64,000 nucleotides of DNA, from assembly GCF_000001735.4 (NCBI RefSeq), contig NC_003071.7:7619151-7683150 (forward strand), written 5' to 3'. Below, piece after piece: positions 56,995 through 64,000 of this stretch (its first letter is position 1; each line of letters begins with the position of its first letter). This DNA is from Arabidopsis thaliana (lineage: Eukaryota; Streptophyta; Magnoliopsida; Brassicales; Brassicaceae). The notes under the pieces were generated by a model, which searched no databases, was not told where the DNA came from, and was given only the letters and a program-made list of their open reading frames with translations. The position numbers and the translations under genes were made by a program.

Positions 56995-57255
56995 TTGGTT
57001 ATTGATCTTGCCTTGGGTTGTTGCTTGAGAGATCAAGCAAATAATATTTGCTTTGACAATTGCAATATCTGTTTGGGGTAAATGAGGCAGAGTATCTGAG
57101 TAAAGATTGTTTCTTGTGAACAATTTTGGTTATTGATCTTGCCTGGGATTGTTGCTTGAGAGATCAAGCAAATCATATTTGCTTTGACAATTACGCTATA
57201 TGTTTGGGGTATTAAATCAGGCAGAGTATCTGAATAAAGAGATCGTTTCTCTTGT
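56995..57255 (+). repeat. Tandem duplication with internal hairpin
   Basis: Copies at about 56995-57117 and 57126-57255 share ttggttattgatcttgcct, gttgcttgagagatcaagca, atatttgctttgacaatt and gcagagtatctga in the same order. Each copy contains the perfect palindrome GCTTGA-gaga-TCAAGC. About 85-90 percent alike by eye. No open frame; lies 330 bp beyond the PPR stop. Confidence 0.85.
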
Positions 57256-60969: not shown

Positions 60970-62709
60970 GTGTTTATGTAATATTGTCATCTTTGTGGGC
61001 ATTCAGTTTTAGAGGATTTGCCGGAGGGATACATATTATACAACCATAAACATAAGATTTTGTAATCACTAGTTAATTCATTTTATAAAAATATGTATTC
61101 TTTTATAAAAACAAAACAATTTTTTCGTGTACACGTTTTTGTATAATTTGGTATTGATGTTACACATTTGAATCTCGGTTTTTTTCTTTTCTTTCTTTTA
61201 CGTCAAAAACAAAAAAACTGTACACGATGAAAATGAGGAAAGTGTTGTGCCAAATCACGAATTAGTACCCATGTCTGTTGATGCTCTAACAATTCTTTCC
61301 ACAAGACCACAACTCCACAAGTAACCCGCGCTATGTTTTCACGGGTATCGACAATGTTCTCAGGTTCCACTATAAACTCATTATCCATTGAGAATTTAGT
61401 GCGCAGAGGAGTTGCTTCAAGTTGATTGACCAATACTTTTTTCAATTGTTAGACATAAACACTGAATACAAATCTTTGAACAACCTGACTTAGATCATCC
61501 TCATTGCACAATAAAACACAGTTTTTTTTTTTTTTTTTTTTAAATGAAAAATAAAATAAAATGTTATTTAGTGCTTTTAGGAGGAAGACTCACTGTCTTT
61601 CATGTCTCTGCAAAGACATTTTCTTACTTTTAAAGACATCACACTTGACTAATAAATGACTCAAATTAAAATAATGTTAATTTTTATAATAAACTATAAT
61701 AAAGACATCTCTAAAAAAGTCACCAATGAGAATGCTCTTAGGAACCAAATTTTGCATGAGGAAAACTGTTAGCTAAGTTAGGGTCTGGTTTAGAACTCAA
61801 GTCCAACTTTCAAAATTTAAAAGAACTAACTTAGTCAGGTTACGGGTTCTTGGGAATACGTTTGTAGTCGAAAGAACTGTTTTCTCGATCGAAATTTTTG
61901 GTAAAACATGAATGAAAGAAAGGTGATCTCCGACGAAAAATTAATAACCTAATTTATCATGAGGTTTTGTAGACTAATTTTCTTTTTACTAAAGTAGTGT
62001 ATTTAAGACTCGGTAATCAATTAACTATGTTCAGAATTTTTGGTTGTTTGGATTGACTTTTGGGTAAAAGAATTTAGAATTGCAAAGAATTGCAAACAAT
62101 CGGTTTGTTCGGATTAGGTAAAAGCATTCCGAATTGAAAACCTAAGTTTGTCTTGGACCCCTAAAATTTAAGCTTAATTTATCAATTTCGGTACATTTGC
62201 AAAGTTCAGTCCAATTCAAATATTCGGTTTAGACCAAAAGTTCGAATAATGAAAAAAAAACATCTGAAAGTTGTGGAATTTTTTTTTAAAGCAAATTGGT
62301 AAACCATAAGAACTTCTTTAAAAGTCCACCACATCATTTATCCTTCAAAATCTCCCCAAATACGAAATCAAGCAAGTCTTCCAAAATTTAGAATCTCCAA
62401 TACACCATGTTGGGAAACAAACCAACTTTTTACATCCGAAGATTATAGATATATTGTCTAATATATCAATCAAGTCCAACTCCAATTAGAAGAAAGTTTT
62501 TTTGGAAAAAAGCCCTAAACAAATTTGTGCAAGTTTTACCACTTGGACCCAAAGCGGACAATATCATCCTAATCGAAAAAGTTGGAATGGGCTTGGAGAG
62601 CCCAACAACCCTATTTTTTAGAAAACAATAAATTTATTTGCAAAACGACATGAAAATCATCGTACAAAACATTCAAGATATATGATGAATTATTTGATTA
62701 TTACCACGT

Positions 62710-62935
62710 CAGTAGTTATGAAGATAAGATTTTACAGTACACGTTGATATAAAGATGAGATTTCGCTGTACACGTCAGTTATTTAGATAAAATTTCACAG
62801 TACACGTCAGTTATAAAGATAAGATTTCACAGTACACATCAGTTATAAAGATAAGATTTCACAGTACACGTCAGTTATAAAGATAAGATTTCATTGTACA
62901 CGTTAGTTATAAAGATAAGATTTCACAATACACGT
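62710..62935 (+). repeat. Seven tandem 32-bp-type repeats in the SDC promoter
   Basis: Copies: 62710-62744 (35 bp, diverged), 62745-62775 (31 bp, diverged), then 62776-62807, 62808-62839, 62840-62871, 62872-62903 and 62904-62935 (32 bp each). The last five differ by only a few bases. Each unit has ataaagataagatttcac followed by gtacacgt. In A. thaliana this array is the known RNA-directed DNA methylation target that keeps SDC silent through DRM2 and CMT3 in vegetative tissue. The repeat units are CG-poor (mainly the one CG in cacgt), so methylation must be largely non-CG. Confidence 0.95.
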
Positions 62936-62974
62936 CAGCCCTAACACAAAACATACTAGGGTTTGATGTGTACC

Positions 62975-62984
62975 TATAAGTATA
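62975..62984 (+). promoter_or_regulatory. TATA-like box of SDC
   Basis: tataagtatag, 40 bp downstream of the last tandem repeat; transcription would start near 63005, about 660 bp before the ATG. Confidence 0.55.
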
Positions 62985-63667
62985 GAGGTTTAAAGCAGAA
63001 TGAGCAAAACAAAAAAATCTTAGAGACTCACGCCGCTTGGAAGAATTCCAAACATTTCAAGAGATCTCTAAGATTTGGCAATCCAAACACCATTAAAACC
63101 TAAACAACACAAAATAGTTTTTTTTACCAATCTGTAAAACTGTCTCGATCAGAAACATTTAAAATTTACTCAAACACCATCAAATCCCAATTATTTTCTT
63201 TCAACATCATAAACTGCGGTTCCAGACATATCCTCCGACTAAAATCTACCGATATAAATGTAAATCTAGCATAAAATAAATTTCTCTCTGTTAGTTACTT
63301 ATTTTTATATCATAATTAACATTTCACCGGTTTTCAATGATATTCAATTAGTTCACCTTACAATTTATTCATTTTCATTATATATTTTTTAGTCAGCAAA
63401 CTGATTGAGCTTTTTCTCAACTCTTTAAGGTTTGAAAGGAAGTAAAGTTGAACTCTCGTGCTCAAAGATCTGCACAGGTAAAAGTTTCTCGACTTGAGCT
63501 AGTGAATCCGACCATTTATTCATTTTCATTTTTTATAAGGAAATGAGTGAATTTTGTTTCCCTATAGACTAAAAATGCACTATCCATATTTTATTCTTTA
63601 ATAGGCCAAAGCATACAAACTATTTGGAGCGTTAAAACAACAATAGTAGCAAAAACAGGGGAGAGAA

Positions 63668-64000
63668 ATGGGTGATTGGTCAAAGCTACCAGAGGAGCTT
63701 CTTGGTTTAATTGCTCTCAGACTTTACTCCGTCATCGAACTCATCCGTTTCCGGAGCATATGCAAGTCATGGCGCTCCTCTGCTTCCGGCGTCAACAAGA
63801 ACCATTCCCTGAGCTCCCCTCTCATCTACTTCAAGCCGCTCCAAATCATTCTCGCTCGCGCACAAGCAAACGGACAAATTTTGAGCAAGTATCATGGCAC
63901 GGTCCTCTCACGTGCCACATTCTTTCGCGTCACACTCGCCTCCTCTCCGGACCAAGGGTGGTTGATCAAATCAGACACCGATCTCAAATACCGGAATTTC
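63668..64000 (+). CDS. SDC: SDC F-box protein (5' part only)
   Basis: Partial; runs off the right edge with the frame open (111 codons). Starts at ATG 63668: MGDWSKLPEELLGLIALRLY, then IELIRFRSICKSWRS, a clear F-box (about residues 4-45) for SKP1 binding in an SCF ubiquitin ligase. The following part (PLIYFKPLQIILAR..., VTLASSPDQGWLIKSD) resembles the start of a DUF295/kelch-like region found in this plant F-box group. SDC (SUPPRESSOR OF drm1 drm2 cmt3) is normally silenced; loss of non-CG methylation releases it and gives curled leaves and dwarfing. Identity rests on the F-box plus the seven repeats upstream, a combination I know only at AT2G17690. Confidence 0.93.
   Translation, partial: MGDWSKLPEELLGLIALRLYSVIELIRFRSICKSWRSSASGVNKNHSLSSPLIYFKPLQIILARAQANGQILSKYHGTVLSRATFFRVTLASSPDQGWLIKSDTDLKYRNF

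Follow-up and report, generated by a model that had tools for sequence, protein, structure and literature searches.

SDC (SUPPRESSOR OF drm1 drm2 cmt3) of Arabidopsis thaliana serves widely as a reporter locus, both for silencing by RdDM and CMT3 and for release under heat, so that a correct map of its repeat array is useful rather than a discovery. The gene is silenced through non-CG methylation of the tandem repeats in its promoter, siRNAs hybridise to these repeats, and activation needs the loss of both the DRM2 and the CMT3 pathways, the transcript being ~10,000-fold up in suvh9 suvh2 kyp, similar to drm1 drm2 cmt3; the repeats are CG-methylated too, the counts being 5 methylated CG against 9 methylated non-CG (PMC2582956). 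Non-CG methylation and siRNAs at the array are also reported in PMC3431836, and derepression of SDC results in a strong leaf-curling phenotype (PMC2582956, PMC4238952). In nrpe1, CHH methylation at SDC goes down, CG and CHG methylation does not, and the transcript goes up; BRAT1 acts on SDC without a methylation change, the transcript being lower in brat1 nrpe1 (PMC4899616), and morc1 shows a weak upregulation of SDC while the promoter is still methylated (PMC7271234). The behaviour of morc1 and brat1 nrpe1 indicates that methylation is not the sole control of SDC. In met1 and ddm1, SDC gains an active CAGE TSS that has its TATA box downstream of the repeats (PMC7319988); SDC is also among the 15 non-TE genes in the 'universal' differentially expressed set of met1 mutants in the accession set of PMC9768921.

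The FWA promoter is like that of SDC in being imprinted and vegetatively silenced and in having methylated promoter repeats, with a TE remnant and tandem repeats at both (PMC3431836, PMC7319988). At FWA, the repeats lie inside a SINE and the TSS lies within that SINE (PMC3431836, PMC7319988), whereas the SDC units had no match elsewhere in the genome at the search sensitivity applied here, and the SDC TATA box is downstream of the units.

We analysed a window of 64,000 nucleotides (C2:7619151-7683150), the whole stretch to which the positions below refer. Its 62711-62936 interval (C2:7681861-7682086) is a seven-unit tandem array that includes five units of 32 bp; Tandem Repeats Finder (TRF) placed the array at 62714-62938 with a period of 32, 7.1 copies and a score of 338, against a top score of 47 in 100 dinucleotide shuffles of 62401-63200. 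Unit limits were set by cutting the array at the CACGTC boundary, which gave the following map of the array, the promoter and the start of the gene.

62705 to 62712, forward strand: CACGTCAG, a partial unit edge at the distal end; an identical 8 bp closes the array at 62931 to 62938
62711 to 62936, forward strand: SDC promoter repeat array, seven units of 35, 31 and 5 x 32 bp
62711 to 62745: array unit 1, 35 bp, 29 of 32 consensus positions matched
62746 to 62776: array unit 2, 31 bp, 27 of 32 consensus positions matched
62777 to 62808: array unit 3, 32 bp, 29 of 32 consensus positions matched
62809 to 62840: array unit 4, 32 bp, 31 of 32 consensus positions matched
62841 to 62872, forward strand: array unit 5, 32 bp, 32 of 32, equal to the array consensus and with the smallest mean distance to the other units
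62873 to 62904: array unit 6, 32 bp, 29 of 32 consensus positions matched
62905 to 62936: array unit 7, 32 bp, 31 of 32 consensus positions matched
62975 to 62980, forward strand: TATA box TATAAG, 38 bp past the last unit
63668 to 64000, forward strand: start of an F-box / KIB1-4 beta-propeller ORF of 421 aa, which runs past the window to C2:7684083

An initial annotation of this DNA, made from the sequence alone, had described a seven-unit array in front of an F-box gene, about 40 bp from a TATA-like box; the TRF comparison, the F-box domain score above its cutoff and the 38-bp distance to TATAAG show that this description was right. It had divided the array into five near-perfect 32-bp units and two diverged ones of 35 and 31 bp. 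The lengths are correct, and the division is roughly right: unit 1 does not exceed units 3 and 6 in substitutions and is set apart by a 3-bp insertion. No additional units were recognisable in either array flank, the best local alignments being equalled or beaten by 872 and 777 of 1,000 shuffles, respectively.

The array DNA occupies one place in its own genome (119,662,809 bases, 7 contigs) in a search that passes over simple repeats and highly frequent words. With up to 3 mismatches allowed, a 30-base pattern of the unit had six matches genome-wide, all of them inside the array (units 2 to 7), and its reversed control had none; unit 1 differs more and falls outside the 3-mismatch limit. A dispersed origin of the unit was dropped, because the array DNA is found at a single place and the unit pattern (up to 3 mismatches) is confined to the array.

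The chromosome position of the array is, we assume, that of SDC, whose repeat unit length we take to be about 32 bp. The seven repeats of ~32 bp, the F-box gene downstream and the TATA box downstream of the repeats agree with the SDC promoter repeats in repeat number, in position before the TATA box and in the F-box gene, and we found no difference in kind. The label AT2G17690 is based on position, gene type and literature. We therefore consider the array to be the promoter-proximal repeats of SDC (AT2G17690), acting as a silencing template and possibly as an activator in one joint explanation, with a probability of roughly 0.95. Nothing was found against the SDC identity or the silencing role, and the identity that had been proposed from the sequence is in agreement with the repeat number, the TATA position, the F-box gene and published work. 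The array, its identity as SDC and the silencing mechanism are correct and already known; what is added to the locus here is the exact unit boundaries, the unit-by-unit divergence, a flanking solo LTR and MITE-like element, and the motif content.

The ORF has 421 codons in a single frame, and its ATG at 63668 is 731 bp past the array. Its predicted F-box domain is weak yet over the cutoff (F-box-like 24.4 bits, cutoff 24.3; F-box 21.8 bits, cutoff 20.5), and the predicted KIB1-4 beta-propeller is strong (106.1 bits, cutoff 27.4). The closest relatives of the ORF in the genome are three C1 genes near 24.45 Mb, with 48-50% identity over about residues 1-275 of 421; these nearest F-box/KIB1-4 relatives form a cluster at C1:24452099-24461738 (loci L031-L033), in which one copy has a TAG in the matched frame. 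At six of the 11 fetched paralog loci (L031-L035 and L041), no unit remnant was found, the best alignments lying inside the range of 60 shuffles each, and there was no comparable array; weak repeats (TRF scores of 50-70) occurred at three of the six, two of them sharing one repeat. For L034, L035 and L041, the locus reaches much less than 1500 bp upstream of the gene, so that these promoters are only partly covered.

On both strands of 62711-62936 there are 14 CG, 20 CHG and 33 CHH cytosines, and this excess of non-CG sites of almost four to one over CG fits control by DRM2 and CMT3. In the published mechanism, siRNAs match the repeats, where DRM2 (RdDM) together with CMT3/KYP maintains non-CG methylation, and this methylation shuts the promoter just downstream; the transcription start is released by the loss of both pathways, by the loss of MET1 or DDM1, or by prolonged heat, and in the endosperm it is the maternal allele that is active. 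RNA-directed non-CG silencing, as claimed in the initial annotation, matches the published RdDM plus CMT3/KYP methylation and the siRNAs at the repeats (PMC2582956, PMC4899616, PMC3431836). The emphasis on non-CG sites is justified for the key silencing step and incomplete beyond it, given that the repeats are also CG-methylated (PMC2582956) and that SDC is also activated in met1 (PMC7319988, PMC9768921). What has been published is methylation and siRNAs at the array and a changed SDC transcript in drm1 drm2 cmt3, rather than an absence of the former or an unchanged transcript, the siRNA size not being given in the available portion of PMC2582956.

SDC is expressed maternally in the endosperm and reactivated by heat without canonical heat-shock signalling and without a major methylation change (PMC4238952); both behaviours had been attributed to the array in the initial annotation, and both were already in print. 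The repeat count in other accessions, which had been suggested as a check, has been published as 'typically seven or eight' for a subset, with differences in heat regulation that are not attributable to repeat number (PMC4238952). A transgene with 1198 bp upstream of the ORF is silent in the wild type but active in drm2 cmt3, and it responds to heat; its signal in drm2 cmt3 is described as 'throughout entire seedlings' and, on closer look, as strongest in young true leaves and 'absent from roots' (PMC4238952). This reporter starts at about window position 62470 (63668 minus 1198), and its behaviour indicates that 62470-63667 is sufficient for silencing, for activity in drm2 cmt3 and for the heat response. 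No heat-shock element pattern (GAAnnTTC or TTCnnGAA) was found in 61801-63100, which agrees with heat acting on chromatin; heat would probably weaken chromatin silencing and not work via heat-shock factors bound at the SDC promoter. Since heat releases SDC without a major methylation change, demethylation of motif sites cannot be the heat step.

The initial annotation had further held that divergence rises away from the gene and that the array expanded by unequal exchange at its gene-proximal end. From the distal to the proximal unit, the distances from the consensus were 3, 5, 3, 1, 0, 3 and 1 of 32, with one gap counted in unit 2 and the 3-bp insertion of unit 1 omitted. Over the seven units, the Spearman correlation of position with consensus distance was -0.58 (one-sided exact P = 0.088) and that with mean pairwise distance was -0.67 (P = 0.058); within the last five units, the corresponding P values were 0.37 and 0.32. 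A weak overall trend therefore stands, but a rise in divergence away from the gene was not established. That the array grew gene-proximally by unequal exchange, leaving older units upstream, is a possibility that we regard as doubtful: the only length changes are in the distal units 1 and 2 and the trend runs in the expected direction, whereas the P values remain at 0.058-0.088 for all seven units and at 0.32-0.37 for the last five, divergence is lowest in unit 5, units 3 and 6 are equally distant from the consensus, and neighbouring units were no more alike than under a random order of units (P = 0.88), leaving this part of the initial annotation not established. An interior expansion that left the end units behind fits equally well. 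Of the 15 substitutions from the consensus (C+G 10 of 32), 7 are C:G to T:A, a share that, in such small numbers and with the consensus taken as ancestral, hints at methylation-driven mutation.

The flank at 61600-62700 matched at least 33 genome places including itself, 7 of them belonging to one dispersed family and 25 to a second, and two elements were delimited upstream of the array.

61490 to 61741 (approximate limits), no strand assigned: MITE-like element with inverted ends, CATCCTCATTG at 61496 and CAATGAG at 61724
62408 to 62607, forward strand: old solo LTR of a TRIM-type retroelement (TGTTGGG...CCCAACA), 200 bp, ending 97 bp before the first CACGTCAG

In the MITE-like element, the bases that follow CAATGAG depart from the inverted copy at one position, and seven other genome loci aligned to the element with 80-95% identity over the stretch from 61600. 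The 1198-bp reporter is without this element and without 62 of the 200 bp of the LTR, retaining 138 bp (62470-62607); because the reporter works without the MITE-like element, that element is not needed.

The solo LTR (C2:7,681,558-7,681,757) is about 69-73% identical to its relatives over most of its length. The term 'solo LTR' in SDC-related papers presumably refers to a separate RdDM marker locus. We compared the LTR with 12 loci, two of which (L019 and L023) overlap, 13 of the 25 places having no separate locus. Six loci contain two LTRs of ~200 bp, which enclose 139-498 bp, the largest (L022, 498 bp) being compound with a third LTR-like stretch. The primer-binding site TGGTATCAGAGC after the first LTR is exact in three of these six (L019, L028 and L022) and altered in the other three (L017, L021 and L027), and the purine tract GAAGGGGAG before the second LTR is exact in four of the six. 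Five of the six two-LTR copies (all but L021) had an exact 5-bp match between their flanks when both ends could be moved by up to 6 bases, a freedom under which, by our estimate, chance gives such a match in about one copy in six; L019 has the clearest 5-bp target duplication, TACTA, at zero shift. With its short LTR, its TG...CA ends and copies that have a primer-binding site, a purine tract and two LTRs, 62408-62607 is classed on sequence grounds as a TRIM remnant. The copies elsewhere in the genome thus follow the plan of two LTRs, primer-binding site, purine tract and 5-bp target duplications that is described for TRIM retroelements, including the Katydid-At families (PMC4717578). SDC differs in holding a solo LTR only, without a clear target duplication: its flanks, ACCAT/ACCCT, match at 4 of 5 bases with a one-base offset, one of seven such near matches in a grid of 6 bases either way. 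No remnant of a TRIM interior was found beside the solo LTR, 152 and 225 of 300 shuffles scoring equal or higher.

As to a possible activating role of the SDC array, a GATAAG-type site is exact in five of the seven units and an ACGT core is present in six, unit 4 reading CACATC; such sites are used by GATA-type and bZIP/bHLH factors. The 32-bp period is close to three helical turns (10.5 bp per turn), which would place the GATAAG and ACGT sites on one helix face. When methylation is lost, the units would expose this putative GATAAG-type site and ACGT core on the same face, and the array DNA may serve as both silencing template and activator. The unit as an enhancer or activator module would be a testable and as yet unproved proposal, for which the two motifs were picked after inspecting the unit and the seven related copies amount to about one observation. 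Outside the array, 124 of 63,689 stretches of 37 bp contain both motifs; taken by itself, this post hoc count proves nothing. Leaf-specific light motifs are not clearly indicated, because the published reporter tissue signal is mixed, and literature searches on SDC with '32-bp' or with 'transcription factor binding' returned nothing. We think it unlikely, although not far-fetched, that a composite GATAAG and ACGT unit multiplied in helical phase gave both a strong enhancer and its own silencing small-RNA template, and that the old TRIM LTR 97 bp upstream seeded methylation or helps to hold it, as the SINE does at FWA. The motif content and the nearby solo LTR make two points testable, namely an activating as well as a silencing role of the array and a possible contribution of the neighbouring remnant.

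A further candidate, a REM/CLSY motif origin of the array (Pol IV recruitment by two or three units), was dropped, as the whole window had no REM/CLSY3-CLSY4 double site (TTTTGCTTAT or AAGCGGAT, one-base spacing, one mismatch per unit); single one-mismatch matches in 61401-63700 were two only, at 63000 and 62552.

It is very improbable, in our assessment, that the TRIM solo LTR at 62408-62607, and not the array, nucleates RdDM, with methylation spreading into the array as from the SINE at FWA. Going by its title, Henderson and Jacobsen 2008 reportedly credits the repeats with recruiting methylation and initiating siRNA spreading; the LTR copy is old, as its divergence from its relatives indicates, and the siRNA probes and bisulfite amplicons in print are directed at the repeats (PMC2582956). 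The proximity of a TE remnant, 97 bp upstream of the array, speaks for such nucleation, as does the finding that, in a species that lacks the tandem repeats, a SINE is able to carry FWA silencing by itself (PMC3431836), and the 1198-bp reporter, which keeps 138 of the 200 bp of the LTR, does not separate LTR from array. That the array is a neutral satellite-like sequence, its methylation a by-product and the promoter unchanged without it, is scarcely credible: the heat-response differences not attributable to repeat number (PMC4238952), the weak rise of SDC in morc1 despite methylation (PMC7271234) and the lower transcript in brat1 nrpe1 at unchanged methylation (PMC4899616) would suit it, but the step from seven to eight units is a small one, and strong SDC derepression, with its strong leaf-curling phenotype, accompanies the loss of repeat methylation (PMC2582956, PMC4238952).

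Several minor features were noted in and beyond the window. Between the array and the TATA box, TAGGGTTT lies at 62957-62964 on the reverse strand, a motif that we take to be a telobox. A possible 5' leader intron, recognised by eye, is located between the TATA box and the ATG at 63478-63604 (CAG/GTAAAAG ... TTTAATAG/GCC). Beyond the F-box ORF are a DUF1990 ORF and a kinase-like ORF, the latter judged from its translation. A 131-bp unit is tandemly duplicated at 56995-57240 (1.9 copies, 89% matches).
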